From positions 1-26,862 of IMG/VR virus record IMGVR_UViG_3300048591_000537: a stretch of DNA of 26,862 nt, one strand, 5' to 3'. This document shows, in pieces, positions 2,778 through 25,863 of this stretch. The position numbers and the translations under genes were made by a program. How positions within the stretch are numbered: position 1 is the first letter of the stretch; every line of letters starts with the position of its first letter. This DNA is from a virus. The notes beneath the pieces were generated by a model that had not been told where the DNA came from, ran no database searches, and saw only the letters and a program-made list of their open reading frames with translations.

Positions 2778-2789
2778 TCCAGCAGCAAG

Positions 2790-2810: not shown

Positions 2811-2840
2811 AGCTGAACCCTGACTCGGAGAGCACCCAGC

Positions 2841-3200: not shown

Positions 3201-3223
3201 TCGCCATGATCGCCTGAGCGGCC

Positions 3224-4176: not shown

Positions 4177-4189
4177 CCGCGCAAACGCC

Positions 4190-4609: not shown

Positions 4610-4640
4610 CCCACCCCCCACACCGCAGAGGACACGCACC

Positions 4641-12897: not shown

Positions 12898-13070
12898 TCG
12901 GCGTCAGCGACCGCACTGTGCGCCGCTGCGTGGCAGGCGCCGCGGCGGGGCCGTCCGGGCGGTAGAGGGTGGGGAAGATTTCGCCCACCTGATCGCAGTT
13001 CGCGCCACCAAAGCGGCCAACGCACGAGGCGCGCACCTATGACGCGCGGCTCGCATGGAGCGCGCCAAAG

Positions 13071-13116
13071 GGTTGCAAATCCGTCCAGCCCGGTTCGACT
13101 CCGGGTCGCGCCTCCA
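13071..13116 (+). other. attP: Phage attachment site core: 3' half of a tRNA-Cys gene
   Basis: The bases match the 3' half of a tRNA-Cys: anticodon loop TTGCAAA (13073-13079, anticodon GCA), a perfect T-arm CCCGG-TTCGACT-CCGGG (13089-13105), acceptor strand CGCGCC and terminal CCA at 13114-13116. The 5' half does not fold as tRNA: bases before 13071 give mismatches in the anticodon stem, and the only GGCGCG upstream (13028) is about 14 bases too far away. Phages that integrate into tRNA genes carry such a 3' half so the gene is rebuilt on insertion. It lies 71 bases from the integrase stop codon. Confidence 0.82.
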
Positions 13117-13187: not shown

Positions 13188-14141
13188 TCACGACCGCCGC
13201 CTGATAGACGCCAGTGCGTCCGCCAGCCGCCGCGTGCCGTGGTGCGCGTAGCGCATGGTGCTGGCGTGGCTCTTGTGCCCCAGCACCGCGCCGACGGTCG
13301 CCAGGTCGACGCCTGCGTCGACCATCGCCGTCGCCGCGCTGTGACGCAGGTCATGCAGCCGGACGTGGTCAAGCTTGCAGGCGGTGCGCGCGAGGGGCCA
13401 GTAGTAGTCGATTTCGCTGCGGCGCGGCATGGGCACGCGCATGGCCGTGCTGATGATCGGCAGCGCGGGCACGATGCGCGGGCTGCCGTTCTTCGTGTCG
13501 GGCAAGATGAAGGCGCCGGCGGCGCGCCGCGCGGCCAGGATCTCCCCCACGCGCATGCCGGTCCAGTAGGCGATGCGGATGACGGCGCGCACGCCCCGGT
13601 GCCGGCAGGCGCGCGCCAAGTCGACCATCTGCGCGCGGCTGATGGTCACGTCGCGCGCGTTGCGCACGCTGGGCTGCACGACGCGCGCGCCCGGGTCCGT
13701 GTCGGCCATGCCGTGCACGCGCCACGCCCATCGGCAGGCGGCGCGCAGGTAGGCGATGCGGTTTGCGATGGTGGCCGGCGCCAGCGCGCCGTGCTGGTCG
13801 GCGGCGTATTCGGCGCAGACTGTCGGTAACTGCTCGATCGGCCGGCCGGTCCACCAATCGCGGGTGGACTCCAGCTCGCGCTCGGTGTTTGCGGCCGCTT
13901 TCAGCCCTGGGAGTCGCTCGCGGACGTAACGACCGACAGCCGTATCGATGTCGTGCCTAGGCTTTGCGATGCCGGCCGCGATCGCGTACAGGGCCGCGCT
14001 TTCCTGGCGATCGTAGGCGTCTGCTTGTGCGCGGGTCCACCCGGCCGGCAGAAGGACGCGCCGGCGAACGCGGCCCCCGCGGATGCGCCGGTCGAAGTCG
14101 AAGCGCCAGCGGCCGGTTCGCTTGTCTTTGTAGATCGGCAT
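13188..14141 (-). CDS. int: Phage tyrosine recombinase integrase
   Basis: A 317-residue site-specific recombinase. The N-terminus (MPIYKDKRTGRWRFDFDRRI) resembles the arm-binding domain of phage integrases, followed by a helical core-binding domain around 65-145. The catalytic domain has all expected residues: Arg197 in YWTGMRVGEIL, Lys217 in DTKNGSPR, His263-Asp-Leu-Arg266-His in HDLRHS, His289 in LGHK and the nucleophile Tyr298 in TMRYAHH. It should insert the phage at a tRNA-Cys gene through the adjacent attP core. I see no integron-integrase-specific insertion between the catalytic motifs, so it is a phage integrase, not an IntI. Confidence 0.93.
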   Translation of the reverse strand: MPIYKDKRTGRWRFDFDRRIRGGRVRRRVLLPAGWTRAQADAYDRQESAALYAIAAGIAKPRHDIDTAVGRYVRERLPGLKAAANTERELESTRDWWTGRPIEQLPTVCAEYAADQHGALAPATIANRIAYLRAACRWAWRVHGMADTDPGARVVQPSVRNARDVTISRAQMVDLARACRHRGVRAVIRIAYWTGMRVGEILAARRAAGAFILPDTKNGSPRIVPALPIISTAMRVPMPRRSEIDYYWPLARTACKLDHVRLHDLRHSAATAMVDAGVDLATVGAVLGHKSHASTMRYAHHGTRRLADALASIRRRS

Positions 14142-14296
14142 CGGGCTTTGTACGCCTCTATGTCCTCCGGGGCGAACCGCAGCGCCCCGCCGCCCGCGCC
14201 AAGCCGGTAGCAGGCCAGCAGCCCGGACGCGGCAAGATCATAGACCGCGCGCGCGCTCAGGCCGAGCTGGTTGGCGACTTGGGCGGCGGTGAGCAT
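13901..14296 (-). CDS. Excisionase-like helix-turn-helix protein
   Basis: Starting at ATG 14296, the first 60 residues (MLTAAQVANQLGLSARAVYD, then LLACYRLGAGGGALRF and APEDIEAYKARC) form a clear MerR/AlpA-type helix-turn-helix of the HTH_17 excisionase family. Excisionases bend DNA at attachment sites and direct the integrase towards excision. The frame continues 131 residues in total and overlaps the integrase start by 241 bases; its C-terminal part is low-complexity Ala/Ser/Gly and Pro-rich and may be non-functional. An upstream GTG at 14341 would add 15 residues but runs through a repeated palindrome, so it is less likely. Confidence 0.7.
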   Translation of the reverse strand: MLTAAQVANQLGLSARAVYDLAASGLLACYRLGAGGGALRFAPEDIEAYKARCRSTKTSEPAAGASTSTGASAGAAFAGASFCRPGGPAHKQTPTIARKARPCTRSRPASQSLGTTSIRLSVVTSASDSQG

Positions 14297-14315: not shown

Positions 14316-14385
14316 CGGTTATGGGCGCAGGTGTGCGCCACTATCCGGTTAGGGGCGCAGTTTTGCGCCCTAGATTGCGTTAGGT
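14316..14385 (+). repeat. Two direct repeats with internal palindromes, attI-like left border of the cassette array
   Basis: Two copies of an element beginning CGGTTA lie exactly 30 bases apart (14316-14339 and 14346-14369). Each contains GGCGCA-4 bases-TGCGCC. A third GTTA element, GTTAGGT at 14379-14385, forms the first recombination core of the cassette array and is preceded by GCCCTA. Repeated GTTA boxes before a final GTTAGG core, with GCCCTA just before it, recall class 1 attI1. There is no RYYYAAC box to the left, so it is not an attC. The palindromes could instead be operators for the leftward excisionase-integrase genes. Confidence 0.5.
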
Positions 14386-14386
14386 T

Positions 14387-15106
14387 TCACAACAGCCCCT
14401 CTTGCACAGGCTGTCTCGCTTCTTCTGGCGGCAGTAGCGTGCCCTGGGCCTGGGCGCGGCTGATGCGCTCGCAGGCAATGTCGAAGTACGGGCGATGAAT
14501 CTCCACGCCTACAAAGCGCAGACCGAGGTTCATCGCCGCTACTCCGGTGCTGCCTGATCCCATGTAAGGGTCAAACGTCAGCGCGGGAAACCCGGCCAGT
14601 TCCAAGCATCGGCGCATCAGGGCAACCGGCTTCTGTGTCGGGTGCTCTAGACCGCCGCCCAAAAACGGGCACTCTTCGCCGCCGCGCTGGATGCCTTGCC
14701 ACCGCTGGCGGTGTACGCGGTTTGAGCCGAGGAAATTTGTCCACGCGGTTTCACAGTCGCCGCCCGACCACTTGCCCACAATCTGCTTGTCCCAAATGAT
14801 CCAGCCGTAGTTATCAGGCAACCTGCTGGCGTAGGCCGAAGCGCCGAACAGGATCACGCGCTTTGCCAGCGGTAGCAGTGCCACAGGGTCAAACGGCGCA
14901 TCGTCGCCGTGTATCGGGGCCGCAGCCTTGCCCCATGTCCGCGTGCCGTCTGGTTTGTACCCGGCGCTTGCCGTCGAGTCGCGGGCATAGCCAATCCCAT
15001 AGGGCGGGTCGCTCACCACGGCATCAAAGCGCGGCAGCAGCGGCAGCACCTCGCGGCAGTCCCCGTGCCACAGTTCCGCGTTCCCGATCACTACTTTCTC
15101 AGCCAT
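14387..15106 (-). CDS. DNA adenine-N6/cytosine-N4 methyltransferase, cassette 1
   Basis: Motif IV DPPYGIGY begins at residue 33 and the SAM-binding motif I FDPYMGSGST is at 178-187, preceded by HPTQKPVAL; this order (IV before I) is typical of the N6/N4 methyltransferase family (PF01555). AAGGG six bases ahead of ATG 15106 supports this start, giving 239 residues; a GTG at 15130 is possible but less good. The gene fills the first cassette between the attI-like border and attC1 and is antisense to attC orientation. There is no adjacent restriction endonuclease, so it is an orphan enzyme, probably protecting phage DNA or altering host methylation. Target sequence is not predictable here. Confidence 0.88.
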   Translation of the reverse strand: MAEKVVIGNAELWHGDCREVLPLLPRFDAVVSDPPYGIGYARDSTASAGYKPDGTRTWGKAAAPIHGDDAPFDPVALLPLAKRVILFGASAYASRLPDNYGWIIWDKQIVGKWSGGDCETAWTNFLGSNRVHRQRWQGIQRGGEECPFLGGGLEHPTQKPVALMRRCLELAGFPALTFDPYMGSGSTGVAAMNLGLRFVGVEIHRPYFDIACERISRAQAQGTLLPPEEARQPVQEGLL

Positions 15107-15137
15107 CTTCATCCCTTGTTTGCGCGCCACCAGTGAA

Positions 15138-15203
15138 ACCTAACCTGTCGCTCAAGCGGACGTGCCGCCTGCGGCGTCACGCCGCTTAGCTCCCACGTTA
15201 GAG
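15138..15203 (+). repeat. attC: attC1, integron recombination site (66 bp)
   Basis: Inverse core ACCTAAC at 15138 and core GTTAGAG ending at 15203. The inner arms GCT-C-AAGCGG and CCGCTTAGC pair with one extra C in the left arm. The central part (GCCGC...GCGGC) also pairs. It closes cassette 1 and is close in sequence to attC2. Confidence 0.88.
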
Positions 15204-15415
15204 CGCACAGGCTTGCGAGTCTCATCCCCGCAGCATCGGCCTACTTGCCCGACTCGCCCGCATTTGGTACAGCGCCACAGGTCACTTTCGTTGGCTGTAT
15301 CACACGGCTGGTCATTGCTTATCCATCGCTTTATGCCGTCGGCGCGCATGTACCAGCGGCGCGGCCTCCCGGTCACAAGGTCAATCAAGGTGCCAAATCC
15401 ACCAGTAATTCCCAT
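15152..15415 (-). CDS. Small zinc-ribbon-like protein, cassette 2
   Basis: An 87-residue protein. It begins MGITGGFGTLIDLVTGRPRR, has WYMRADGIKRWISNDQ, and then a likely metal-binding cluster WRCTKCGRVGQVGRCCGDE with two CxxC-like or CC pairs, suggesting a zinc ribbon. GAGGA lies immediately before the ATG. I cannot name the family. The last 15 codons (about NVGAKRRDAAGGTSA) are encoded by attC1 read backwards, and the TGA stop comes from the TCA of the attC left arm. Its C-terminus would therefore change with whichever attC lies next to it. Confidence 0.68.
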   Translation of the reverse strand: MGITGGFGTLIDLVTGRPRRWYMRADGIKRWISNDQPCDTANESDLWRCTKCGRVGQVGRCCGDETRKPVRSNVGAKRRDAAGGTSA

Positions 15416-15430
15416 TCCTCAATCTCCCGC

Positions 15431-15493
15431 GCCTAACCCGGCGCTCAAGCGGGACCGTCCGCGAGCGGCCGGCCCCTTAGCTCTGCGTTAGAG
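15431..15493 (+). repeat. attC: attC2, integron recombination site (63 bp)
   Basis: Inverse core GCCTAAC at 15431-15437 and core GTTAGAG at 15487-15493. The inner arms GCT-C-AAG and CTTAGC pair with one extra C on the left; the centre includes GGACCGTCCGCGAGCGGCC. It is a textbook short attC and closes cassette 2. Confidence 0.92.
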
Positions 15494-15681
15494 CGCATAG
15501 TCCGCACGTCCGACTTATGCACCAAAAAACAATCACCGTCGTGCTTTGCGCTGCCGTCTGGGTAGTCAGCGCCTTGTAGGTGCAGCCATTCGCCGCGCAT
15601 TGCGAGCAACCAAAACCACGGCCAATCGCTTGCGGGGTCGCGCCATTCAATCTGCACCAATGTCGGTTTCTTTTTTGCCAT
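15445..15681 (-). CDS. Small unknown protein, cassette 3
   Basis: A 78-residue protein beginning MAKKKPTLVQIEWRD, then DWPWFWLLAMRGEWLHLQG and DGDCFLVHKSDVRTM. It is rich in Trp and acidic residues, with no family I recognise. The gene starts three bases to the left of attC3, so the reversed core GTTAGAG lies just ahead of the ATG and might serve as a weak ribosome site. The last residues (about RSNAELRGRPLADGPA) are encoded by attC2 read backwards and the stop is the TCA of its left arm. Gene-sized and codon-like, but unsupported by homology here. Confidence 0.62.
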   Translation of the reverse strand: MAKKKPTLVQIEWRDPASDWPWFWLLAMRGEWLHLQGADYPDGSAKHDGDCFLVHKSDVRTMRSNAELRGRPLADGPA

Positions 15682-15683
15682 CG

Positions 15684-15743
15684 CTCTAACTCGTCAATCA
15701 ACCCGGACTCGCCTTCGGCGAGCCGGTTATTTCTGCGTTAGGC
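15684..15743 (+). repeat. attC: attC3, integron recombination site (60 bp)
   Basis: Inverse core CTCTAAC at 15684-15690 and core GTTAGGC at 15737-15743. The arms AAT-C-AACC and GGTTATT pair with an extra C on the left, and the centre forms a perfect hairpin CTCGCC-TTC-GGCGAG. Its sequence differs from attC1/2 and attC4/5, so it is a third type. Confidence 0.92.
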
Positions 15744-16025
15744 AGCGCCAACAGCCGCCGCCGTCGCATCGTTCATCGTCTTCTCCAGCGCCTCGGCCTC
15801 GTCGGCCAGCTCGATCAGCCGCTGGGCCGTTTCGCGCAGGGCCTTGTGCCCCGCCAGAAGGCGCATACTCGAAACCTCGCGGTCGCGCGTCAGCCCTTCC
15901 AACCCGTAGCCAAAGCGCGGCTCGCTGCAAATCAGCACCAGCTCAATCCGCGCCTTTACCTTTGGCGGCGCGTCCAAGTCGGGCGCCAGAATCAGGTTGC
16001 TTGCGTGGCCAAGTAGCTCTTTCAT
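15738..16025 (-). CDS. Small helical unknown protein, cassette 4
   Basis: A 95-residue protein, MKELLGHASNLILAPDLDAP at the start, then KVKARIELVLICSEPRFGYG and a C-terminal helix (ALRETAQRLIELADEAEALE) likely to form a coiled coil. AAAGGACAG before the ATG at 16025 is a good ribosome site. The stop codon TAA is formed by the attC3 core GTTAGGC read backwards. I cannot assign a function. It has its own leader of about 28 bases before attC4, so it may be expressed from the leftward operon by its own ribosome site. Confidence 0.66.
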   Translation of the reverse strand: MKELLGHASNLILAPDLDAPPKVKARIELVLICSEPRFGYGLEGLTRDREVSSMRLLAGHKALRETAQRLIELADEAEALEKTMNDATAAAVGAA

Positions 16026-16053
16026 GTCTGTCCTTTGTGCGCCACCAGGCGCT

Positions 16054-16156
16054 GCCTAACACTTCGGTCAACGCGACCCGCCACGGCGGGCCGCTCTATC
16101 TCGCTCCGGGTCAGTCAGTGCGCGCCGTGCCGGGCGCGTTACCTCGGGCGTTATGC
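16054..16156 (+). repeat. attC: attC4, long integron recombination site (103 bp)
   Basis: Inverse core GCCTAAC at 16054-16060 and core GTTATGC at 16150-16156. The arms GGT-C-AACGCG and CGCGTTACC pair with an extra C on the left. The long centre shares CTCCGGGTCAGTC with attC5, so the two belong to one family distinct from attC1-3. Confidence 0.87.
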
Positions 16157-16983
16157 GTGTCGAACAGCCCGGCCTGCGGGCATCCCCGCGATAGCCACAG
16201 GCTCTCCACTCGATCACGCGCTCCATCTGCATGGGCCGAAGCGTCGATGCGCTGCCACCCGTCGAACAGTCCGTCGTACAGGTCGCACCTGTAGCCGCTC
16301 ACCACCACCATGCCGCGCAGGCCCGCCAGGTGGGTCGCCAGCGCGCGGTGCTGCTGGTCGTTCATCTCGTGCCGGTAGGCCGGTGCGCGCGTCCGCATGC
16401 CGCGAGTGCTGTGCACGTAGGGCGGGTCCACGTAGTGCACGGTATCTGCGCCGTCGTGGTGGCTCATCACGTCCAGCGCGTCGCGGTTCTCGATCACCAC
16501 GCCCCGCAGGCGCTGCACCACCGCGCGCAGGTGCGCCGGGTAGTTCATCCAGTCGCTGGCAGGCGTCGTGTAGCTGCGGGTCACGCTTGAACGGAAGCCT
16601 GTCACCTGGCCGCTGATGCCGGCACTGCCAAAGCCCATGAAGCTGCGCACCAGCGTGCGCCTGGCTTGCTCCAGCGGGTCGCCGGCGGGCTCATAGGCCT
16701 GGTCGAACTCGGCGCGGGCAAATGGTGTCAGCTCGCAGGCGCTGGCCAGCGCTTCGCCCTGGTCGCGCGCCACGCGAAACAGGTTCACGATCTCGCCATC
16801 GAGGTCGTTGTACACCTCGGCGTAGCTGCGCGGCTTCTGCAGCAGCACACTGCCGCCGCCGCCGTAGGGCTCCACGTACACGCGGTGCTGCGGCAGGTGG
16901 CGCAGTATCCAGGGCGCCAGCTTCCACTTGCCACCGTGGTAGCGCACAAGGGGCCGCCGTGGTGCGCCAACAGCGCCACGCAT
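16111..16983 (-). CDS. Dam-like D12-class DNA adenine methyltransferase, cassette 5
   Basis: A D12-class N6-adenine methyltransferase (PF02086). From ATG 16983 it has 290 residues: LVRYHGGKWKLAPWILRHLP at the N-terminus, SAM-binding EPYGGGGSVLL at about 38-48 and catalytic DPPY at 186-189, followed by HSTRG. The frame is open another 25 codons upstream, but those lie inside attC5; the ATG in the attC5 inverse core is preferred. The last 15 or so residues (THNARGNAPGTARTD) and the stop are encoded by attC4 read backwards. Likely target is a short adenine-containing site such as GATC, though this is not proven. Probably shields phage DNA from host restriction. Confidence 0.88.
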   Translation of the reverse strand: MRGAVGAPRRPLVRYHGGKWKLAPWILRHLPQHRVYVEPYGGGGSVLLQKPRSYAEVYNDLDGEIVNLFRVARDQGEALASACELTPFARAEFDQAYEPAGDPLEQARRTLVRSFMGFGSAGISGQVTGFRSSVTRSYTTPASDWMNYPAHLRAVVQRLRGVVIENRDALDVMSHHDGADTVHYVDPPYVHSTRGMRTRAPAYRHEMNDQQHRALATHLAGLRGMVVVSGYRCDLYDGLFDGWQRIDASAHADGARDRVESLWLSRGCPQAGLFDTHNARGNAPGTARTD

Positions 16984-17079
16984 AACACGTCGGTCAAGCA
17001 GAGTGCCAACGGCGGCCACGCCGTCGCACTCCGGGTCAGTCTGTAGCGCCGTTGTCACCTGCTTACCTCACCGTTATGC
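16980..17079 (+). repeat. attC: attC5, long integron recombination site (100 bp)
   Basis: Inverse core GCATAAC at 16980-16986 and core GTTATGC at 17073-17079. The arms GGT-C-AAGCAG and CTGCTTACC pair with an extra C on the left. The centre includes CTCCGGGTCAGTC, as in attC4. It is the rightmost recognisable attC; none is found beyond the truncated sixth gene. Confidence 0.87.
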
Positions 17080-17366
17080 CTCGCAAGCACAGCCAGCGCG
17101 TGCGTGCCGAGGAATTCCGAATACGCTGGCGGTATCGCGTTGTTCGTGTCGCCGGTTTCCCCGCGCTTGCGGGATGCCCCGCCCGAACTTGGCATCCACG
17201 GCGTCCCTTGCGCCTCGCGCATCTTGTCTGCCGTGCGGCCTGCGCCGTGCCACGGGTCGTAAATGTCCCTGTGGTCGCACGGCGGCATCAAAAGCGGAAG
17301 GGCAAAGCTCACCTCAAAGAACCGATGCTTTGCAATCAGCAGACCGAACATCGTTCCACACAGCAT
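17055..17366 (-). pseudogene. C-terminal fragment of a C5-cytosine DNA methyltransferase, truncated cassette 6
   Basis: About 103 residues: MLCGTMFGLLIAKHRFFEVS, then DIYDPWHGAGRTADKMREAQ, SSGGASRKRGETGD and NNAIPPAYSEFLG. This is the end of a phage-type cytosine-C5 methyltransferase; the SAM-binding motifs and the catalytic PC motif, normally N-terminal to it, are missing. The homology stops at the junction with the next gene, whose TGA overlaps an in-frame ATG (TGATG at 17364-17368), so the fragment may still be translated. Its stop lies inside attC5, exactly as in the intact reversed cassettes. It most likely marks a sixth cassette cut by recombination into the operon. Confidence 0.78.
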
Positions 17367-17527
17367 CAGGCTTTCTGCTGCTGGCGTTCCAGCGTGGCGC
17401 GTAGCCGCTCGATCTCGTCGGCCATACGCTGGATCAGACATTCCGGGTGGGCGCGCTCGCAGCCCTCCCAGTGCGTGCGCTGGGTGCCGTCGATGCGCTG
17501 GCGGGCGATTTGCACGAGGTCACTCAT
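17366..17527 (-). CDS. Small phage operon protein, 53 residues
   Basis: The translation reads MSDLVQIARQRIDGTQRTHW, EGCERAHPECLIQRMADEIE and ends RLRATLERQQQKA. The HWEGCE...HPEC pattern with cysteines followed by a charged C-terminal helix is characteristic of small conserved phage proteins of unknown function. The start overlaps the previous gene's stop by eight bases (17520-17527), fitting the coupled operon. It is the last intact gene before the cassette array; its stop codon coincides with the truncated methyltransferase junction, so the original downstream gene may have been lost here. Confidence 0.75.
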   Translation of the reverse strand: MSDLVQIARQRIDGTQRTHWEGCERAHPECLIQRMADEIERLRATLERQQQKA

Positions 17528-17768
17528 CCTTGCCTCCCGCCCGCTCTGGCTGGCACAGCGGGATCAGCTGATCGATCGTGTCGCGCAGCGCTTGCCACTC
17601 ATCCGGGTCGATCTGGATTTTCCCGATGTCGACCCTGCCATGCTGGACCACTTCGACGAACTCGCCGGCCCCCTCGTCGACGATCCGCACGTGCGTCGTC
17701 AACTCACTGGTCAGTATCTCGTGCTCTGGCACGACTGCGATTTCGGTCACGCGGGTGATGTACTTCAT
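17520..17768 (-). CDS. Unknown small phage operon protein, 82 residues
   Basis: From ATG 17768 the protein has 82 residues and reads MKYITRVTEIAVVPEHEILT, TTHVRIVDEGAGEFVEVVQH and DPDEWQALRDTIDQLIPLC. It appears to be a small alpha/beta protein with a beta sheet first and a helix last. I do not recognise the family. The start overlaps the upstream gene's stop by four bases (17765-17768), which is why it is preferred over the longer frame starting upstream. It belongs to the leftward operon downstream of the repressor-controlled promoter. Confidence 0.72.
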   Translation of the reverse strand: MKYITRVTEIAVVPEHEILTSELTTHVRIVDEGAGEFVEVVQHGRVDIGKIQIDPDEWQALRDTIDQLIPLCQPERAGGKDE

Positions 17769-17983
17769 GCGATCTCCCACGCCGGCACCGTCGCTGGCGC
17801 CTGCCTCACGTTTGCAACTGGATCGAGCGCCATGGGGCGCGTCGCGCACTGCTCTCGCTCGTGCAGCTCCTCCCACAGCGCCACCATCAGCTCGCGGCGT
17901 GTGCGGCGCAGCCCGAAATAGTCCTCCAGCGCGCACAGCGCCTCCCGGCCGCGCAGCTCGCGGGCCTCGCCGACGGGAATCAT
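17765..17983 (-). CDS. Unknown small phage operon protein, 72 residues
   Basis: From ATG 17983 the protein has 72 residues: MIPVGEARELRGREALCALE, then DYFGLRRTRRELMVALWEEL, and a less ordered C-terminus ending PATVPAWEIA. The middle is a strongly helical, charged segment. I cannot assign a family or function. Four-base overlaps with both neighbours (17980-17983 and 17765-17768) indicate translational coupling and support the chosen start. Confidence 0.7.
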   Translation of the reverse strand: MIPVGEARELRGREALCALEDYFGLRRTRRELMVALWEELHEREQCATRPMALDPVANVRQAPATVPAWEIA

Positions 17984-18201
17984 CGCGACCCCAGAAACTC
18001 GTGGTGCCATCCGCCAGGCCCCTCGCAGCGGCTGATGACTCGGTCGGTGGCCTCGCTCACCATCCGCCATTTAGCGGGCCGCTTCGAGTCGTCGAGATCG
18101 CCGAGCACCTCGACCGCCTCTCGCGCTCGCCGCGTGGCTACCTCGTCCAGCCCGCGCAGCACGATGCGCCACGCCCCGGTTGTGTTCAGTTCGAGCCTCA
18201 T
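17980..18201 (-). CDS. Unknown small phage operon protein, 73 residues
   Basis: From ATG 18201 the protein has 73 residues, starting MRLELNTTGAWRIVLRGLDE, then VATRRAREAVEVLGDLDDS and KWRMVSEATDRVISRCEGPG. The pattern of strand-helix-strand suggests a small alpha/beta fold. I do not recognise it. Four-base ATGA overlaps at both ends place it firmly in the coupled operon. The frame is open further upstream but would overlap the winged-helix gene. Confidence 0.7.
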   Translation of the reverse strand: MRLELNTTGAWRIVLRGLDEVATRRAREAVEVLGDLDDSKRPAKWRMVSEATDRVISRCEGPGGWHHEFLGSR

Positions 18202-18689
18202 GACTGCCTCCTCCGCGCCATCCAGTCCTCGGTGATCGCCCCGCGCCCGGCGACGGTCGGGTCGGCCGTGTAGCGCGGGTCGGCCGGGAACGGCGCGTAG
18301 GTGTAGCGCGCCGTCGCCGGGACGATCACCTCGCCGCCAGGCGGCAGCGCGAGCCGTGCCTTTGCTACCGTCGTCGTCCGGGCGTGGGGGTCGTTGATGA
18401 CGGCCAGCGGCTTGATCTTCTTCGGCTTGGCGGCCGATGCCGGCGGCGCGTGCTCTCGCAGATACCAGCGCTGGTCGTGATAGGCCAGCGCGCGCCGCAC
18501 GACGTGCCCGTAGGCCGCGAGGCGCGCCATGCTCATGGATACGCTGCTGATCTTGACGCCGCGCCGCTCGGCAATCTCCGACACCGTGGCGCCGCGGCCG
18601 CCGGCGCGCTCCAGGATGTCCAGCACCGCGTTCATGCCGGTCTTCCACGCCTGCGCAGGGATGTCGCTGACGGGCGCGCGGCGCGTCAT
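18198..18689 (-). CDS. Winged-helix DNA-binding protein
   Basis: From ATG 18689 the protein has 163 residues. Residues about 16-78 form a winged helix-turn-helix: MNAVLDILERAGGRGATVSE, then IAERRGVKISSVSMSMARL and AAYGHVVRRALAYHDQRWYL. The remaining part is Pro- and Lys-rich and without a recognised fold (KPKKIKPLAVINDPHART). Such proteins commonly act as transcription or replication regulators in phage early operons; the target is unknown. It has ATGA overlaps with both neighbours. An alternative is a plasmid-partition or replication accessory role. Confidence 0.75.
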   Translation of the reverse strand: MTRRAPVSDIPAQAWKTGMNAVLDILERAGGRGATVSEIAERRGVKISSVSMSMARLAAYGHVVRRALAYHDQRWYLREHAPPASAAKPKKIKPLAVINDPHARTTTVAKARLALPPGGEVIVPATARYTYAPFPADPRYTADPTVAGRGAITEDWMARRRQS

Positions 18690-19030
18690 GCCGGGCTCCG
18701 CGTGATGCGCACCACGGCCGGCGTGCCGCTGGCCGGATCCTGCCACTGCACCACCTCGAGCAGGCCGCGCCACACGCCGTAGGCGATCGCCTCGCGCACC
18801 ATGTCGATCGCCTCGTCGCAGCTTTCGCGGGGGTCGAGCATGTGCCGCACGTCCCACAGGCGTTCGGAGTCGGGCCGGATGCGCACGGCCTCGCATTCGA
18901 TGTCGGCGACGACCAAACGGTCGGCCATGCGGTAGGCCAGCAGCGTCATCGGCTCGTCGGCGATGTCGGGCGCGGCGGCGGCGGATGCCTGGGCCAGGAT
19001 CGTGCAGGGCGGGGGCGGTTCATAGCGCAT
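18686..19030 (-). CDS. Unknown phage operon protein, 114 residues
   Basis: The protein starts MRYEPPPPCTILAQASAAAA, a Pro/Ala-rich segment, then MTLLAYRMADRLVVADIECE and HMLDPRESCDEAIDMVREAI, ending VVRITRSPA. The C-terminal two-thirds look folded (alpha/beta); an internal ATG at residue 28 is a possible alternative start. I do not recognise the family. It overlaps the HD-domain gene by 11 bases upstream and the winged-helix gene by four bases downstream. Confidence 0.66.
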   Translation of the reverse strand: MRYEPPPPCTILAQASAAAAPDIADEPMTLLAYRMADRLVVADIECEAVRIRPDSERLWDVRHMLDPRESCDEAIDMVREAIAYGVWRGLLEVVQWQDPASGTPAVVRITRSPA

Positions 19031-19655
19031 CGTCGTCGTCCTGATAGGTGTCTGTGGGGTGGGCGCGGCAAGCGGCCTGCAGGCCCGCGTGCTGCTGGCG
19101 GAACTGGTCGCGCCAGTCGCGCCAGTCGAAGCTGCGCTCGTCGTAGTCGGCGAGCCAGATCTCGTCGCTGGGGGCGATGCCGTGCAGCGCCGGCCAGTCC
19201 GGGCCGCCGGGGGGCATCAGGCAGCGGCGCTCGGTGGCGAGCATGCGCAGGTCGGCCGCGCGGATGGCGCGGCGGTAGCCGACCGACGCCACGCGCACGC
19301 CGAATCGGCGCTGCACCTGCGCGCGCACGCGCGACTCGACCCGCCGCCAGGCGCGGTCAGGGTCCTCGGCGTCGAGCGCGTCCTTGAGCGGCGTGGAGAG
19401 GTCGCCGATGTAGGCCTCGTGCGCGTCGTGCAGCAGGCCGGCCAGCAGCGCATGCGGGCTGTCGATGCCCATCTCGTCGCGCATGACGGCGACGACGTGG
19501 ATGCTGTGCTCGGCGACGCTGTAGGGGCGCCGGCATGCGCCGGTGAAGCGGTTCAGCTGCGCCAGGTGATGCGCGACATCGTCAATCGACAGGGCCGCTG
19601 GGTCGGCCAGGCGCAGGTCGACGCGGCGGCCGGTGGAGGTTAGGAGCCAGGTCAT
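19020..19655 (-). CDS. HD-domain phosphohydrolase, YfbR-like
   Basis: From ATG 19655 the protein has 211 residues, MTWLLTSTGRRVDLRLADPA at the N-terminus. The metal-binding HD signature is clear: His50 in YSVAEHS, His76-Asp77 in LLHDAHEAYIGDLSTPLK, with further conserved Glu80 and Asp85. Such proteins are related to 5'-deoxynucleotidases (YfbR) and are common in phages, where they may adjust nucleotide pools or cleave nucleotide signals. The substrate cannot be told from sequence. Four-base overlap with the upstream gene (19652-19655) sets the start; a frame extension upstream would overlap that gene. Confidence 0.85.
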   Translation of the reverse strand: MTWLLTSTGRRVDLRLADPAALSIDDVAHHLAQLNRFTGACRRPYSVAEHSIHVVAVMRDEMGIDSPHALLAGLLHDAHEAYIGDLSTPLKDALDAEDPDRAWRRVESRVRAQVQRRFGVRVASVGYRRAIRAADLRMLATERRCLMPPGGPDWPALHGIAPSDEIWLADYDERSFDWRDWRDQFRQQHAGLQAACRAHPTDTYQDDDDAL

Positions 19656-20143
19656 GTGTCGACCTGCGGCAGCTGCAGCTTCTTGCGCACCATCGTCTGA
19701 AGAACGCCGAACTTGGCCTGCGCGTCGGCGTTGGCTCTCCGTTCGTCGTCGGTCAGCCATTCAGTGCGGATGAACGAAACCTCGCGCACGGCCTTGTTTA
19801 GTGCGTTTGCGATTTCCGCGCCGCGGTCCTTCAACGCGAGCCGCGTTTGTTCGTTGGGCGGGATCACCATGTAGCCGACGCCTTCGACGAGCCGCAGCTT
19901 TATGCGATGGTTTTCCAGCAGGCTCTGGCACAGCTCGCCAATCGCGAAGTTGAACAGCATCTGCTGCTGCATTGCCGCCAGTCCGTTTAGGTCGCGTGGG
20001 TCCTCCACACCGAAGCCGGCGCGCAGGTAGTCCATGGGGATCGTCTCGCCGTCCTTCAGCCCTCGGGCAAGCAGGTCGCTTTCGACCTGCCGCCAGGCGG
20101 GATACAGCTTCATGCCGTCCCTGTCGCTGGCGGCAGCGCTCAT
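19652..20143 (-). CDS. Conserved phage protein of unknown function, 163 residues
   Basis: From ATG 20143 the protein has 163 residues: MSAAASDRDGMKLYPAWRQV, then GLKDGETIPMDYLRAGFGVE, MQQQMLFNFAIGELCQSLLE and DDERRANADAQAKFGVLQTM. The mostly helical middle and basic C-terminus (VRKKLQLPQV) suggest a DNA-associated early protein, but I do not recognise a family. A second in-frame ATG at residue 11 (MKLYPAW) is an alternative start. It is linked by ATGA overlaps with both neighbours. Confidence 0.72.
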   Translation of the reverse strand: MSAAASDRDGMKLYPAWRQVESDLLARGLKDGETIPMDYLRAGFGVEDPRDLNGLAAMQQQMLFNFAIGELCQSLLENHRIKLRLVEGVGYMVIPPNEQTRLALKDRGAEIANALNKAVREVSFIRTEWLTDDERRANADAQAKFGVLQTMVRKKLQLPQVDT

Positions 20144-20712
20144 TGCACGCTCACCAGGTCGAAGCGCCCGAAGCGCGGGCGGTAGTCGCCAAGGCCGATC
20201 ATGGCGCCGGTGTCGCGCACCACGCGGGTGATGTCGTCGGCCTGCAGGGACGACTCGTCGAACAGCAGCGTAAACGTCATCTCCCAGTCGCGGAAGATTG
20301 GGCGGCATCGTGTCACCTTGGACGTGCCGACCTTGACGCTGCGGATGTCCACAAAGCTCTTGTTGCCGAAGAGCTTTGCGGGGTCGCGCGGGCCGTTGAA
20401 GGTGAGCGGGACCTTGTCCTCGCGCACCAGGGCGCAGCGCTTGATCGCGGCGCCCAGCTTATGCAGCTTCCCGCCAGCCACGATGGCGGCGAAGACGTTG
20501 TAGCCGGGGACATGAATGCCGCTTTCGTCGTCGTGGTACAGGCCGCCCATCCACTCGAGGCGCGCTATCTCCATCAGGTCGTCTTCGGTCTTCTTGCGCT
20601 TGCCGGTTACGCTCTTGATTTCCTTCGTGAGCGGGTCGAACGGGTTGGCCAGCCTTTCGCTGTGCATCATCAACGGCGTGCTGCCGCGTACGGTGTAGGT
20701 CTTGGACTTCAT
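20140..20712 (-). CDS. Conserved phage protein with RAMP-like C-terminal pattern
   Basis: From ATG 20712 the protein has 190 residues: MKSKTYTVRGSTPLMMHSER, SVTGKRKKTEDDLMEIARLE, GIHVPGYNVFAAIVAGG and RDWEMTFTLLFDESSLQADD, ending with the glycine-rich GLGDYRPRFGRFDLVSVQ. The final strand-helix-glycine loop arrangement resembles RAMP/Cas7-type ferredoxin folds, but this is a visual resemblance only. Relatives appear in phage early regions without known function. GGAGCAAC lies six to ten bases before the ATG. The frame is open through the upstream repeat block, but that block is open in all frames and cannot be taken as coding. Confidence 0.72.
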   Translation of the reverse strand: MKSKTYTVRGSTPLMMHSERLANPFDPLTKEIKSVTGKRKKTEDDLMEIARLEWMGGLYHDDESGIHVPGYNVFAAIVAGGKLHKLGAAIKRCALVREDKVPLTFNGPRDPAKLFGNKSFVDIRSVKVGTSKVTRCRPIFRDWEMTFTLLFDESSLQADDITRVVRDTGAMIGLGDYRPRFGRFDLVSVQ

Positions 20713-20792
20713 CGTGTTGCTCCTGTGGTCGTGCGTCAGTGCACGAGGTAAACCACCGCTGCCGATGGCCTGCCTGCTGTACTGACAGCCCC

Positions 20793-21226
20793 TGCCTTGC
20801 CGTGCCGTGCCGCGCCATGCCCCGCCGCGCCGAGCCCGGCCAAGCCGCGCCGGGCCTTGCCTTGCCCCGCCTTGCCCTGTGGTGTTGCCACCGGCAAACG
20901 CTGGTTGCGCTTGCCGCTGAAAACAGCCCCTGCCCGGCCTGGCCATGCCGTGCCCCGCCGAGCCTTGCCCGGCCCCGCCCTGTGGTGTTGCCACCGGCAA
21001 ACGCTGGTTGCGCTTGCCGCTGAAAACAGCCCCTGCCCTGCCGCGCCGCGCCGCGCCGAGCCCAGACTTGCCGAGCCCAGCCATGCCCTGTGGTGTTGCC
21101 ACCGGCAAACGCTGGTTGCGCTTGCCGCTGAAAACAGCCCCTGCCTTGCCCCGCCGAGCCATGCCCGGCCGAGCCACGCCCTGCCGCGCCGCGCCATGCC
21201 ACGCCGCGCCGAGCCCTGCCTAGCCA
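20793..21226. repeat. Three identical 53-bp cores separated by in-phase nGCCn pentamer tracts
   Basis: The cores lie at 20878-20930, 20981-21033 and 21089-21141 and appear identical. Around and between them run tracts of pentamers with GCC in the middle: 17 units (20793-20877), 10 (20931-20980), 11 (21034-21088) and 17 (21142-21226); only one unit (AGACT) breaks the pattern. Each core can form small hairpins, TTGCC-ACC-GGCAA and GCTG-AAAA-CAGC. The block lies in the 586-bp gap 20713-21298, inside the leftward operon, and would be transcribed as a leader of the 190-residue gene. All six frames are open because the pentamer excludes stop codons, so I do not treat it as coding. Confidence 0.88.
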
Positions 21227-21298
21227 CGACCACAGGTGTGCGAACACACCGGGGAGCGCCGCACGCGACGCAGCCCGCTGAATTCCAGCCCTTGGCCA

Positions 21299-21499
21299 TC
21301 AGCAAATCCACACGCGCTCGATCTCGTCGCGCACATGGTTGAGTTCATCCGCGTACCGCTGCGCCAGATCGGCGGTGAAGCACTCCATCAGCGGCCACAG
21401 GCGAGGCGTGCAGTCGATGCGTCGCACAACCTCGAACACCGTGCGGCCGTCCTGCGCGACGACCGGGCCGCGCACGCGGTACACGGGCGCCGTGCTCAC
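21299..21499 (-). CDS. Unknown small phage operon protein, GTG start
   Basis: From GTG 21499 the protein has 66 residues: STAPVYRVRGPVVAQDGRT, VFEVVRRIDCTPRLWPLMEC, FTADLAQRYADELNHVRDEI and ends ERVWIC. A small beta part is followed by a helix. I do not recognise the family, though small phage proteins of the form VFEVVR...A..YADELN are common in early operons. The GTG overlaps the upstream TGA (GTGA at 21496-21499), which identifies the start. It is the last gene before the repeat block. Confidence 0.7.
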   Translation of the reverse strand: MSTAPVYRVRGPVVAQDGRTVFEVVRRIDCTPRLWPLMECFTADLAQRYADELNHVRDEIERVWIC

Positions 21500-21747
21500 G
21501 GCAGCACCACGGACAGGTAACCGGCCAGCAGGCTGCAGGCCACGATGACCACGACAAGGCCCACCGCGATCACCGCCGACATTGCCGGGCCGGGCAGGCC
21601 GGTGTCGTCGTCGTCGCCGCACTGGCAGGCTGCGGGCGTGGGGAACGCGCGCCGGCCCTGTGCGCACGGGCCGCTGCAATGCGGCGCGGGCAGGGTGTCG
21701 GCGAACATCGGGCGGTGGCGCGGGATGCGGGGGGGAGCGGATGTCAT
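21496..21747 (-). CDS. Small membrane protein with Cys-rich segment
   Basis: From ATG 21747 the protein has 83 residues. The N-terminal half is Pro- and Cys-containing (APHCSGPCAQGRRAF, AACQCGDDDD) and the C-terminal half is a clear transmembrane helix (AVIAVGLVVVIVACSLLAGY). The four cysteines could bind a metal or form disulfides. It is probably an inner-membrane protein; functions such as superinfection exclusion or lysis control are possible but unproven. It overlaps both neighbours by four bases. Confidence 0.7.
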   Translation of the reverse strand: MTSAPPRIPRHRPMFADTLPAPHCSGPCAQGRRAFPTPAACQCGDDDDTGLPGPAMSAVIAVGLVVVIVACSLLAGYLSVVLP

Positions 21748-21935
21748 GCCATCGCCTCCCAAATCCAAAGGGCCAGGCCGACGCCGATGGCGACGGCAAG
21801 GGCGATGTCGGCCGCGGTCTCCCAACGGCTGCGACGGCGCGGCCAGCGCTCTATGGGGTCGAAGTCGGCGGGGCGCCACGACCGCGCCCAGGTGCACGCG
21901 TGGATCACGCGCCGGTGCTCGGGAAGGCGGTTCAT
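21744..21935 (-). CDS. Small single-pass membrane protein, 63 residues
   Basis: From ATG 21935 the protein has 63 residues. The N-terminal two-thirds are basic (MNRLPEHRRVIHACTWARSW, IERWPRRRSRWET), and the C-terminal third is a membrane helix (DIALAVAIGVGLALWIWEA). The positive-inside rule suggests the N-terminus lies in the cytoplasm. I do not recognise the family. ATGA overlaps at both ends link it with the coiled-coil protein upstream and the Cys-rich membrane protein downstream. Confidence 0.7.
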   Translation of the reverse strand: MNRLPEHRRVIHACTWARSWRPADFDPIERWPRRRSRWETAADIALAVAIGVGLALWIWEAMA

Positions 21936-22264
21936 TGCGCGGCCGCCTTGACGACTGGTTTCGATGCGGCCTTGACGACGGGCTTGGCCGCGGCTTGCTT
22001 GGTCGTCGGGCGCGAGGCGATGCCGAGCTCGCCGCCCTTGGTGATGCCGATGGCGAGGTCTTCGCGCAGGTCTTCCTGCAGCTGCAGGACCTGCTGATGC
22101 CAGAACTCGGCGCGGTCTTCGGCGTCCGCGGCCAGGCCGCGCGCCTGAGAGAGCTGGTCCTCGAGGTCGTCGATCTGGTCTGAAAGCTGCCGCGCGTGGT
22201 CGCGCAGGTGCTGCAGTTCCCAGCGCTCCAGGCGCTGGCGCAGCTTGGTGAGGATCGGGTCCAT
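21932..22264 (-). CDS. Coiled-coil protein, first gene of the leftward operon
   Basis: From ATG 22264 the protein has 110 residues. Residues about 10-75 form a long coiled coil (LRQRLERWELQHLRDHARQL, DQIDDLEDQLSQARGLAAD, FWHQQVLQLQEDLREDL). The tail contains Lys/Ala/Val repeats (KPVVKAASKPVVKAAAQ), histone-tail-like. GGAGG lies five bases before the ATG, a strong ribosome site. It is the first gene after the operator-bearing leftward promoter, so it should be expressed early and be silenced in lysogens. Function unknown; a nucleoid- or membrane-associated scaffold is one option. Confidence 0.75.
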   Translation of the reverse strand: MDPILTKLRQRLERWELQHLRDHARQLSDQIDDLEDQLSQARGLAADAEDRAEFWHQQVLQLQEDLREDLAIGITKGGELGIASRPTTKQAAAKPVVKAASKPVVKAAAQ

Positions 22265-22303
22265 CTCGCCTCCACGCGGCCCGGGGTGGGCCGATGGGGC
22301 GAA

Positions 22304-22347
22304 GTGTCATCCCGCATCCGGGATGTTGTCAATCCCGTTTGCGGGAC
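22304..22347 (-). promoter_or_regulatory. Leftward early promoter with two operators
   Basis: On the minus strand TTGACA (22332-22327) is followed after 17 bases by TGACAC (22309-22304), a weak -10. Two 16-bp operators ATCCCG-4 bases-CGGGAT/C lie at 22309-22324 and 22332-22347, 23 bases apart, covering the spacer and the region just upstream of the -35. Repressor binding here should shut off the leftward operon starting at 22264. Confidence 0.72.
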
Positions 22348-22356
22348 TGTTACACT

Positions 22357-22719
22357 TTATTCGTCGGACAGGTCCTGCGGGCGCGAGTGGGCCTGTTCGC
22401 GCAGGTCTCCCAATTCGCGCACCAGACTGTCGATGCGGTGCCAGACCTTGCGCTCGGCCGCGCTGGTTCCGCGTACCAGGGGCGGGTTGTTCGGCTCCAA
22501 CCCGTCGATGAGTAGCTGCCAGGGTTCAAGCTCGAACACCGCGGCCAGCCTCTCTAGGGTGTCGATGCTGGCACCTGCCGCGCGCCGCTGAATGCGGTCG
22601 AGCGTGCCGTTCGATGGGCCGCCGGCGGCGGCGATCTTTGGCAGCGTGTCCAGGTGCGGGCGCGCATCCCGCAAGCGACGCAGGTTGTCGGCCAAGATGT
22701 CGCGCGGGCTGCGTCCCAT
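22357..22719 (-). CDS. CI-like phage repressor, short form without peptidase domain
   Basis: From ATG 22719 the protein has 120 residues. Residues about 8-70 are a XRE-type helix-turn-helix: ILADNLRRLRDARPHLDTLP, GPSNGTLDRIQRRAAGAS and IDTLERLAAVFELEPWQLLI. The rest is a helical dimerisation-like tail (AERKVWHRIDSLVRELGDL). There is no LexA-like S24 peptidase domain, so RecA-dependent self-cleavage is unlikely and induction would need another signal or an antirepressor. It is divergent from the cro-like gene and is flanked by four matching operators, so it should control both early promoters. A frame extension upstream to 22809 runs through the operators and is rejected. Confidence 0.88.
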   Translation of the reverse strand: MGRSPRDILADNLRRLRDARPHLDTLPKIAAAGGPSNGTLDRIQRRAAGASIDTLERLAAVFELEPWQLLIDGLEPNNPPLVRGTSAAERKVWHRIDSLVRELGDLREQAHSRPQDLSDE

Positions 22720-22742
22720 GCCGTAACTGTGACGCCGCGGCC

Positions 22743-22786
22743 GTCCCGAAGCTGGGATTGACGTTATCCCGAAAACGGGATTACCA
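22743..22786 (+). promoter_or_regulatory. Rightward early promoter with two operators
   Basis: TTGACG (22758-22763) and TTACCA (22781-22786) are spaced by 17 bases. Operators of the same type lie at 22743-22758 (GTCCCG...TGGGAT, imperfect) and 22766-22781 (ATCCCGAAAACGGGAT, perfect), 23 bases apart, in the same geometry as at the leftward promoter. The ATG of the cro-like gene begins only nine bases after the -10. Confidence 0.72.
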
Positions 22787-22795
22787 TGTCGTCCT

Positions 22796-23041
22796 ATGGA
22801 GTCGATCATCGTCTACCTCCGGCGCCGGTTGCGCGAGGCCGGCCCTGAGGCGTGGCCCGCGATTGCGGATGCCGCCGGGGTCGCCAAGACGCTGCCGCGC
22901 AAGATCGCCTATGGCGATCGCGACAACCCCGGCGTCGCCACGATCCAGCCGTTGCTCGATTACTTCCATGCGCTGGACCGCCGTGCGCCGCGCGGCGTGG
23001 AGGCGCCGGGCGAGCCCGCCCCGTCCCCCACCACAGCCTGA
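22796..23041 (+). CDS. Cro-like small DNA-binding protein
   Basis: An 81-residue protein, MESIIVYLRRRLREAGPEAW at the N-terminus, then PAIADAAGVAKTLPRKIAYG and GVATIQPLLDYFHALDRRAP. This fits a helix-turn-helix of the Cro/YdaS-like type in the first 60 residues and a disordered Pro-rich tail. It is transcribed divergently from the repressor and is the first gene after the rightward promoter, as in lambdoid switches. It probably binds the same operators and represses the repressor gene. No Shine-Dalgarno sequence precedes the ATG, and the predicted transcript start is only a few bases upstream, so its mRNA may be nearly leaderless. Confidence 0.8.
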   Translation: MESIIVYLRRRLREAGPEAWPAIADAAGVAKTLPRKIAYGDRDNPGVATIQPLLDYFHALDRRAPRGVEAPGEPAPSPTTA

Positions 23042-23466: not shown

Positions 23467-24428
23467 CACCCCAGGACGTGGTGGGCCAGATGCTAGCGGC
23501 CGGGCTCGACCAGCCGCCGCTGCCGCTGGACACCGGCGGGCGCATCGTGCGCTTCGGCCCGCGGAAGCGGCAGTGGTACTGCCTGCGCGAGCAGCGCACG
23601 GCCGGCGGCAGCTACGTGACGACGGGCAGCTTCGGCGACTGGCGCGGCGGCACCTGGCGCGTCGACGTGGACTGGCGCGGCATCGGCGACGACGAGCGCG
23701 CGGCGCTGCAGGCGCAGCGCGAGCAGCAGCAGGCCGCGGCGCAGCAGGCGCGCGACGCCGAGGCGGCACGCGCGGCGATGTCGGCCGCGCAGTTGTGGGC
23801 CAGTGCGGCGCGCGCGGGCTCGAGCGAGTACCTGGCGCGCAAGCAGGTCGTGGGCGAGGCCTGCCGCTACCTGCCCGACGGCAGCATCGTGGTGCCGCTG
23901 CTGCGCTACGACGCGCCGCGCGAGGATGCGCTGCGCGCGCTGCAGCGGATCTGGCCCGACGGCCGCAAGCGCTTCACCGCCGGCTTCCAGAAAACCGGCG
24001 TGTGCTGCCGGCTGGGCCTGGCGGAGGTTGGCATGCCGATGCTGCTGTGCGAGGGCTACGCGACGGGCCTGACGCTGCGCCTGGCGGTGCGCCGCCGCAT
24101 GCCGGTGGTCGTGGCGCTGGATGCCGGCAACCTGCGCCCGGTGGCGGAGCTGATGCGGGCGCTGTACCCGGCCAGCCGCATCCTGATCTGCGCCGACGAC
24201 GACTGGCGCACGCGCGGCAACCCGGGCCGCACGGCAGCGCACAAGACGGCCCGGGCGGTGCCGGATGCCGCCTACACGTGGCCCTACTTCCGCCCCGGCC
24301 ACCGCGGGCCGAAGGACACGGACTTCAACGATCTGCACGTGCGCGAGGGCCTGGAGGCGGTGCGCCGCCAGATCGCGCACGTGCTGCCGCTGATCGGGTG
24401 TTCGGATTTGTTCAATGAAGCCGCCTGA
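23463..24428 (+). CDS. TOPRIM-domain primase-like replication protein
   Basis: A 321-residue protein. Residues about 85-110 form a Gln/Ala-rich helix; residues 120-180 contain YLARKQVVGEACRYLPDGSI and a beta segment typical of the phage primase domain with TOPRIM. The TOPRIM signature is present: Glu197 in LLCEGYATG, Asp220 in VVVALDAGN and Asp245-Asp-Asp247 in LICADDDW, which bind magnesium. The C-terminus has KDTDFNDLHVREGLEAVRRQ, seen in many phage primases. No N-terminal zinc finger is seen, but WYCLREQ and WRGGTWR occur. It is probably the primase for phage replication, acting with the adjacent helicase. Confidence 0.85.
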   Translation: MTPQDVVGQMLAAGLDQPPLPLDTGGRIVRFGPRKRQWYCLREQRTAGGSYVTTGSFGDWRGGTWRVDVDWRGIGDDERAALQAQREQQQAAAQQARDAEAARAAMSAAQLWASAARAGSSEYLARKQVVGEACRYLPDGSIVVPLLRYDAPREDALRALQRIWPDGRKRFTAGFQKTGVCCRLGLAEVGMPMLLCEGYATGLTLRLAVRRRMPVVVALDAGNLRPVAELMRALYPASRILICADDDWRTRGNPGRTAAHKTARAVPDAAYTWPYFRPGHRGPKDTDFNDLHVREGLEAVRRQIAHVLPLIGCSDLFNEAA

Positions 24429-25863
24429 CAACGTCATCCCGATGCCAGAAACCCCTCCCCCCACCGATGGAGGCGCGCCTGCGCCGCCGGGGGGTGGGGG
24501 CAAGCCGCGCCGGCGCAAGACGACGATCAACCTGGGCAACTACTCGCGCCTGATGGAGGGCTTCGCGCTGATCTATGGCACGAAGACGGCGTGGGACGAG
24601 GAGACGCACCGGATTGTTCCGATCGATGCGCTGCGGCTGGCGATGACGGGCGACAGCGTCAAGGCCTGGCTCAACTCGCCCGGGCGGCGCATGGTGATGC
24701 CCGAGCAGCTGATGTTCGAGCCGGGGCAGGATCTCGAGCCGCCGTGCGTGCAGCTCTTCGCCGGGATGGAGCTGGAGCCGCTGCGCTGCACGCCGGCCGA
24801 TGTGGCGCCGATGCTGGACCTGCTGCGCCACCTGTGCAAGGACAGCGCCGACACCCAGGCGGGGGTCGACGCGGTGGTGCACTGGGTGCTGTGCTGGCAG
24901 GCGCTGCCGCTGCAGCGGCTGGGCACCAAGATGCAGACGGCCGTGGTGATGCACGGGCCGCAGGGCACCGGCAAAAATCTCTACTGGGATGCGTGGCGCG
25001 ACCTGTACGGGCGCTACGGCGTGACGGTGGGGCAGGTGGAGCTCGAGGACAAGTTCAACGGTTGGCTGTCGCAAAAGCTGGCGATCATCGGCGATGAGGT
25101 GGTCAGCAGGCAGGAGATGTACCACAACAAGAACCGGCTGAAGCTGATCGTGACGCAGGCGACGAAGTTCCCGATCCGCGAGATCCAGCAGCCGACGCGG
25201 TGGGAGAGCAATCACTGCAACGTGGTCTTCCTGAGCAACGAGTCGCAGCCGCTGGCGCTGGAGCAGCGCGACCGGCGCTACATGGTCGTCTACACCCCGC
25301 TGGCCGACGAGGCTGGGCTGTATCTGCGGGTGCGGGACTTCCTGGCGCGCGATGGCTTGCGACGCTGGATGTACTACCTGCAGCACTACCGCACAGGCGA
25401 CTTCGACGCGCACACCAAGCCGCTGCTGACGGCGGCGAAGGTGTCGCTGGTGCAGGCCGGCTGGAAGCCCGAGGAGCGGTTCGCGCATGAGTGGGCACGC
25501 GGGTATCTCCCCCTCCCCCTGCGCGTGTGTTCAGCCGAGCAGCTGTACCGCGCGTTCCGGCGCTGGTGCGACCACAACGGGGAGCGTTTCCCGCCGTCGC
25601 AGGGGCGATTCACGGAAGGGATACGGCGGTGGGTGGCCGAGCACGCTGGGGCAGGTGCCGCGCCGCCGCTGCTGGGCTACAAGGTGGTCGCGCTGCAAGA
25701 GGTGGACGGGCGCCGCGCGGTGCGCTGCTGGATTCCGCACGGCACGCAGCCGCTGCCAGGCGTGAGCGAGGGCGCATGGGCGGCCGAGAGCGTGGGCGCC
25801 TTCGAGTCCGTGCTGCGCACGTACTGCCGCTCGGCAGGCGGCGGGGAGATCGACGGTGATTAG
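24415..25863 (+). CDS. SF3-type replicative helicase (DUF5906-like)
   Basis: A 482-residue protein overlapping the primase-like gene by 14 bases. A disordered Pro/Gly-rich N-terminus is followed by a helical region and an ATPase core: Walker A GPQGTGKN at 181-188, Walker B LAIIGDEVV at 222-230, sensor-like NVVFLSNE at 269-276 and a likely arginine finger in RDRRYMVV at about 285-292. This matches the SF3/DUF5906 helicase of P4-like and related phages. The C-terminal third has a helical, winged-helix-like region (LYRAFRRWCDHNGERFPPSQ). It likely opens the origin and drives the fork. Immediately downstream is the inverted GTTACG repeat array. Confidence 0.9.
   Translation: MKPPDNVIPMPETPPPTDGGAPAPPGGGGKPRRRKTTINLGNYSRLMEGFALIYGTKTAWDEETHRIVPIDALRLAMTGDSVKAWLNSPGRRMVMPEQLMFEPGQDLEPPCVQLFAGMELEPLRCTPADVAPMLDLLRHLCKDSADTQAGVDAVVHWVLCWQALPLQRLGTKMQTAVVMHGPQGTGKNLYWDAWRDLYGRYGVTVGQVELEDKFNGWLSQKLAIIGDEVVSRQEMYHNKNRLKLIVTQATKFPIREIQQPTRWESNHCNVVFLSNESQPLALEQRDRRYMVVYTPLADEAGLYLRVRDFLARDGLRRWMYYLQHYRTGDFDAHTKPLLTAAKVSLVQAGWKPEERFAHEWARGYLPLPLRVCSAEQLYRAFRRWCDHNGERFPPSQGRFTEGIRRWVAEHAGAGAAPPLLGYKVVALQEVDGRRAVRCWIPHGTQPLPGVSEGAWAAESVGAFESVLRTYCRSAGGGEIDGD

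Follow-up and report, generated by a model that had tools for sequence, protein, structure and literature searches.

The window analyzed here is the whole of IMG/VR virus record IMGVR_UViG_3300048591_000537 (26,862 bases), a phage sequence in which an integron gene cassette array lies between the excisionase gene (xis) and the early operon. The array appears to start with an attI-like site, whose core lies at 14379/14380, and to continue with five complete cassettes, each with a canonical attC, and what remains of a sixth (Table 1). To its left are xis, the phage integrase gene (int), a tRNA-Cys sequence and, further out, capsid and tail genes; to its right are the early operon and replication genes, so that phage hallmark genes flank both sides; the original prediction, made from the letters of this DNA, had likewise placed phage genes on each side. 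That prediction had also counted five attC sites, five complete cassettes and one incomplete one, and the five sites are confirmed by both methods described next.

We built an attC covariance model from 22 chromosomal attCs of Burkholderiales only, with no phage sites in training. The model scored all five sites in the window, each on the plus strand (53.0 to 27.8 bits; E values from 8e-14 to 5e-6), and the next-best match in the window reached only 10.9 bits. A simple attC regular expression returned the identical five sites and gave 0 matches in 100 Markov-simulated windows, while an Rfam scan of the window produced no matches and no attC family at threshold. Each of the five sites folds with R'', L'', L' and R' boxes and an extrahelical base. 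In four of the five cassettes the start is complementary to the cassette's own R'' arm (over 12, 9, 13, and 10 nt), compared with 4 to 7 nt for the arm of the abutting downstream attC in the same four, which is what one would expect had each been a free circle at some time. Applied to related phages, the model found about 40 additional attC sites. Among 65 other viral or genome loci (811 kb, including Dam-bearing prophages), L014, itself one of the array phages identified earlier, and L006 were alone in giving attC matches. The latter is a more distant phage contig (IMGVR_UViG_3300028794_000183) with three attCs at L006:464-2277; in common with the window it has the int-xis module as well as some small genes.

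Immediately left of cassette 1 lies an element with the consensus GGTTA(T/G)GGGCGCA-n4-TGCGCCCTAGATTGCG/TT (the slash before TT marks the crossover), which also occurs in six other viral contigs, seven in total. In each contig, G/TTRRR comes next, followed by a differing first cassette. The original prediction had taken the left edge at 14379 for a broken attC; because the same element precedes different first cassettes, that assignment was dropped, and the position and architecture of the element at 14318-14379 point to an attI-like site instead. The element sits beside xis in the window and G007, upstream of the portal gene in G003 and G006, and at a third locus in G005 and G008; G007 carries two copies. 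It was not found in 401 Rubrivivax-family genomes with up to 3 mismatches allowed, and every copy found sits in a viral contig. Neither outcome that had been named beforehand as speaking against the array, unscored attC sites or an unchanged block in a host chromosome, was seen. A broader attI pattern yielded no additional contigs and none with intI. A clean empty attI was likewise not found; the empty locus B in L018 is without attI hairpins.

Related phages hold the same loci with different cassettes; the replication helicase (DUF5906) served as a query for relatives. At the G003 and G006 loci, one flank is 100% identical (510 nt) and the other 99.8% (630 nt); G003 nevertheless has three cassettes and G006 has one, and identity ends at the cores. 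Similarly, G005 and G008 have flanks 98% and 95% identical and arrays that differ, with breakpoints at the cores. On the attI/intI side, L221 and L222 match completely for approximately 1,079 nt, as they do for 579 nt into the array; L222 carries exactly one additional 523-nt unit at attI, which starts with TTGGGCGGC and ends in an attC up to the G. The L221 contig (G425) encodes terminase, portal, capsid, tape measure, tail fibre, and primase/helicase, and the L222 contig carries int. These three pairs thus differ by whole cassettes between otherwise equal loci, which supports the condition of activity that the original prediction had set on its proposal of cassette exchange. In a fourth pair, G012 and L208, flanks are 94 to 97% identical and the arrays are wholly different.

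Many relatives appear to have, between the array and xis-int, a gene for an integron integrase (IntI) belonging to a distinct phage clade. In G012 the full IntI encoded there scores 429 bits, and a search with its sequence recovered 28 viral contigs encoding IntI relatives. In a tree of 79 IntIs, 20 phage IntIs form one clade (96/86; inner 19 at 100/98) with a sister pair of one phage and one bacterial IntI, and no bacterial IntI of the order exceeds 62% identity to the G012 query. Terminase and portal genes are present on six contigs with full IntI (G417, G427, G428, G429, G432, and G434). All attCs of the IntI contigs lie on the opposite strand to intI, which is the canonical arrangement, and the phage attI is conserved (GTTACGCCGC..CTGCGGTCGAATT...G/TT), its distance to the intI start being about 42 nt in most cases. 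In the window phage and its closest relatives, attI and cassettes are kept without intI, and IntI would be supplied in trans by the host or by a co-resident IntI phage. IntI phages G416, G417, and G437 have the sample numbers of G008, G007, and G006, respectively, which makes a co-resident phage a possible donor of IntI in trans; the host is another possible source, with IntI in 88 of 201 genomes of the likely host family. A bacterial contig, L261 (G542:C13), encodes at 2209-4935 the IntI nearest the phage clade together with two attCs; it may represent a prophage or else the bacterial origin of the phage IntI clade.

Judged from the extra base and from the strand on which the model scores them, the attCs point away from attI, yet the cassette genes point towards it, and all cassette open reading frames (ORFs) in the window lie on the strand opposite the attC polarity. 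A gene sharing the polarity of its attC is usual for cassettes but not strictly defining. By a longest-ORF rule, bacterial arrays have 32 genes in the same and 6 in the opposite orientation, versus 12 and 52 in phage arrays (Fisher P = 7e-11); for ORFs supported by a ribosome-binding site (RBS) the ratios are 17:4 and 4:44 (P = 4e-9). A codon-score strand test worked for phage cassettes but not for bacterial ones (4:2 confident), and the comparison therefore uses the longest-ORF and RBS-supported counts, alike for both sets. The upstream neighbor of the array has the direction of the cassette genes in 10 of 10 cases, and cassette-gene direction agrees with the phage operon. Since attI faces the downstream end of the operon and the genes point towards it, we propose that cassette genes are transcribed by read-through from a phage promoter rather than from Pc at attI. 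The reversed genes likely reflect expression from the operon, which would reach the array from the side distal to attI, so that cassettes with reversed genes would be the useful ones. If expression is by the phage operon, newly captured cassettes would sit at its 3' end. Reversed polarity thus yields a specific, checkable prediction, expression via the phage operon and not Pc. One inter-attC segment in array A of G003 (L007:1-770) holds several genes in the attC direction; no other confident departure from reversed polarity was seen in the window group.

We interpret the locus as a functional-type integron cassette array in a temperate phage whose lineage uses integrons for gene exchange, with a probability, judged from sequence comparison, of about 0.88. 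The window array itself is real and probably mobile. IntI-catalyzed recombination between attC and attI would insert cassettes, carrying DNA methylases and small early-type genes, at attI. It also seems fairly likely that these phages have a dedicated class of integron, with its own IntI clade and attI, phage-type cassettes of inverted polarity, and derived attI-only phages (with several sites per genome) that depend on IntI in trans. Several points weigh against the main interpretation of the locus. Neither the window nor G003-G008 encodes intI in cis, as a complete integron would, so the array cannot move by itself and must be served by IntI in trans; taken jointly, the window and G003 span most or all of the near-identical genomes. 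The GTTA-to-core spacing is 32 nt both in the window element and in the attI beside phage intI, but the two types match at only 15 of 32 positions (shuffle P = 0.013), so that their homology, and with it a common origin, is suggestive only. Complementarity of cassette 2 to its own end spans only 5 nt, ORF strand is uncertain for some small cassettes, and the related contigs are all metagenomic and mostly partial.

With at least two attCs and no intI, the window array counts as a cluster of attC sites lacking an integron integrase (CALIN), and it could be a fragment of a host chromosomal integron, acquired in a single illegitimate recombination event and inert today. Qi et al. (PMC9892861) read several phage CALINs in this way, and the likely host family often has IntI. 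We consider such an origin improbable, given that one attI element recurs at several phage positions with different cassettes, that it is missing from the 401 host-family genomes, and that gene polarity is the reverse of that in host integrons. It is further contradicted by G003/G006 and L221/L222, near-identical phages that differ precisely by cassettes. Those differences could instead have arisen by ordinary phage homologous recombination between conserved attC or attI repeats, without an integrase, as the attCs of unrelated cassettes are often 85 to 100% identical over 50 to 60 nt, sufficient for exchange. The change of exactly one TT...G cassette at attI between L221 and L222, the match of four of five window cassette starts to their own attC arm and not the neighbor's, and the joint conservation of IntI and attI in relatives make this route quite unlikely. 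That the hairpins are terminators or regulatory stem-loops between early genes, rather than attCs, is scarcely credible: the sites are located between small genes of one operon and attC hairpins can be weak terminators (cited in PMC9892861), but the asymmetric extra C, the R and L boxes, the strand-specific scoring by an attC model with independent training, and the exact cassette differences at G/TT between phages all argue for attCs in an integron array.

Integrons have been studied as bacterial devices, and phages were previously thought to pick up pieces of them occasionally. Qi et al. (PMC9892861; 2023) described phage genomes with attC arrays or CALINs that frequently carry DNA methylase genes, showed that IntI1 recombined five of six tested phage attCs into attI1, and reported three complete integrons in temperate phages, of Vibrio, class 1, or Shewanella types. 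Set against those integrons, the phages examined here have an IntI clade of their own and a conserved attI, their genomes hold attI sites at several positions with no intI, their cassette genes run in reverse, and near-identical phages differ in the cassettes present at one locus. The original prediction called integron cassettes in phages apparently rare and knew of no established phage lineage using them as a cargo platform; integron parts in phages had in fact been published (PMC9892861). Also beyond that prediction are the intI genes of the relatives, the reversal of cassette genes relative to attC, and the putative attI at the left boundary. Beyond Qi et al., the open-access PMC literature yielded no description of a phage IntI clade, of phages with attI only, or of reversed polarity, and all three appear to be new.

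In attC type and in intI-attI-attC geometry, the phage arrays resemble the sedentary chromosomal integrons of Burkholderiales (e.g., that of Rubrivivax pictus W35); they differ from them in gene direction, towards attI in phages (12:52) and away from it in bacteria (32:6), and in IntI, with the identities given above. The class 1 attI1 site has a similar layout, GTTA...hairpin...core G/TT, with a spacing of 33 nt versus 32 nt in phage attIs; we confirmed the attI1 string in at least 5000 plasmid records. Unlike attI1, the phage site has no Pc or intI1 alongside, and the remaining sequence differs. Cassettes can also enter genomes outside an integron, at a short degenerate target, in attG-type insertion. 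Unlike attG, the phage site is a conserved, hairpin-bearing element common to seven phage contigs. Phages thus appear to own a system comprising an integrase clade, an attI, and a methylase-rich cassette pool, with snapshots of populations that show single cassettes gained or lost. Such a system would be a modular route for phages to alter counter-restriction and early genes and would offer a vehicle carrying cassettes between hosts.

Table 1. Features of the array and its surroundings in the window
Feature	Position	Strand or attC polarity	Details
tRNA-Cys sequence, probable attP	13044..13112	+	ARAGORN; adjoins int
Phage tyrosine integrase (int), not IntI	13188..14141	-	PF00589
Excisionase-like HTH_17 protein (xis)	13901..14296	-	PF12728
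attI-like site	14318..14379	+	GGTTATGGGCGCA-n4-TGCGCC, then GGTTAGGGGCGCA-n4-TGCGCCCTAGATTGCG/TT; crossover 14379/14380
Cassette 1	14380..15197	+	N6/N4 DNA methylase gene 14387-15130 on -; PF01555
attC1	15138-15203	+	53.0 bits, E 8e-14; G/TT boundary 15197/15198
Cassette 2	15198..15487	+	87-aa Cys-rich (zinc-finger-like) ORF 15152-15415 on -
attC2	15431-15493	+	38.3 bits; G/TT boundary 15487/15488
Cassette 3	15488..15737	+	78-aa ORF 15445-15681 on -; no assigned function
attC3	15684-15743	+	52.4 bits; G/TT boundary 15737/15738
Cassette 4	15738..16150	+	95-aa ORF 15738-16025 on -; no assigned function; coding score favors -
attC4	16058-16152 by the model; about 16054-16156 for the site	+	35.3 bits; G/TT boundary 16150/16151
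Cassette 5	16151..17073	+	Dam/D12-type DNA adenine methylase 16111-17058 on -; PF02086, TIGR00571
attC5	16983-17076 by the model; about 16980-17080 for the site	+	27.8 bits, E 5e-6; G/TT boundary 17073/17074
Sixth cassette remnant (favored reading), without attC	17074..~17366	+	C-terminal ORF fragment on -; after attC5 core
Phage early operon up to cI-like ORF	17378..22809	-	Same direction as cassette genes
Phage replication helicase (DUF5906)	24415..25863	+	PF19263

The methylases encoded by cassettes 1 and 5 may serve counter-restriction. The cassette 1 methylase is common to the L105/G009 and G010 arrays (93.8% identity over 640 nt with G009), and attC2 is 96% identical over 56 nt to the attC of an unrelated G007 cassette. 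The Dam cassette, fifth from attI in the window, is first in G003 and at another locus (92% amino acid identity). Relatives of its Dam methylase (71 to 78%) occur without attC sites in viral contigs L026-L036, several from isolate genomes, and are candidates for the gene prior to its becoming a cassette. Because genes found without attC in prophages, such as these, occur here as cassettes, the origin of cassettes becomes testable. The ORF fragment beyond attC5 gave no family match. The right junction near 17378 is where homology to G003, G004, and G007 begins, and the fragment together with the lack of shared sequence before that point favors a cassette remnant at 17074-17366 over native phage sequence following a clean attI half, which we also considered.

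The window phage is temperate and its host is probably in the Burkholderiales; an INPHARED search with its helicase returned no close isolate. Its integrase was ruled out as an IntI (TIGR02249, 28.5 bits versus a cutoff of 265). A segment of the tRNA-Cys sequence recurs in the IntI phage G428 (89% over 56 nt). Homology to relatives ends at the xis start codon on one side of the array, and on the other the early operon and G003 share 97% identity next to the array. At its ends, the G005 contig (L145/L146) holds a cassette for a D12 methylase in which a tandem repeat encodes QLPHLGDAGRGVNR; a 158-nt terminal repeat lies inside this repeat-containing gene, and since the contig ends there, the genome is probably circular, at about 38 kb. 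Between early genes at 20740-21250, the window contains GC-rich direct repeats, with approximately three copies of the unit ...VFSGKRNQRLPVATPQG..., possibly a repeat-driven spacer.

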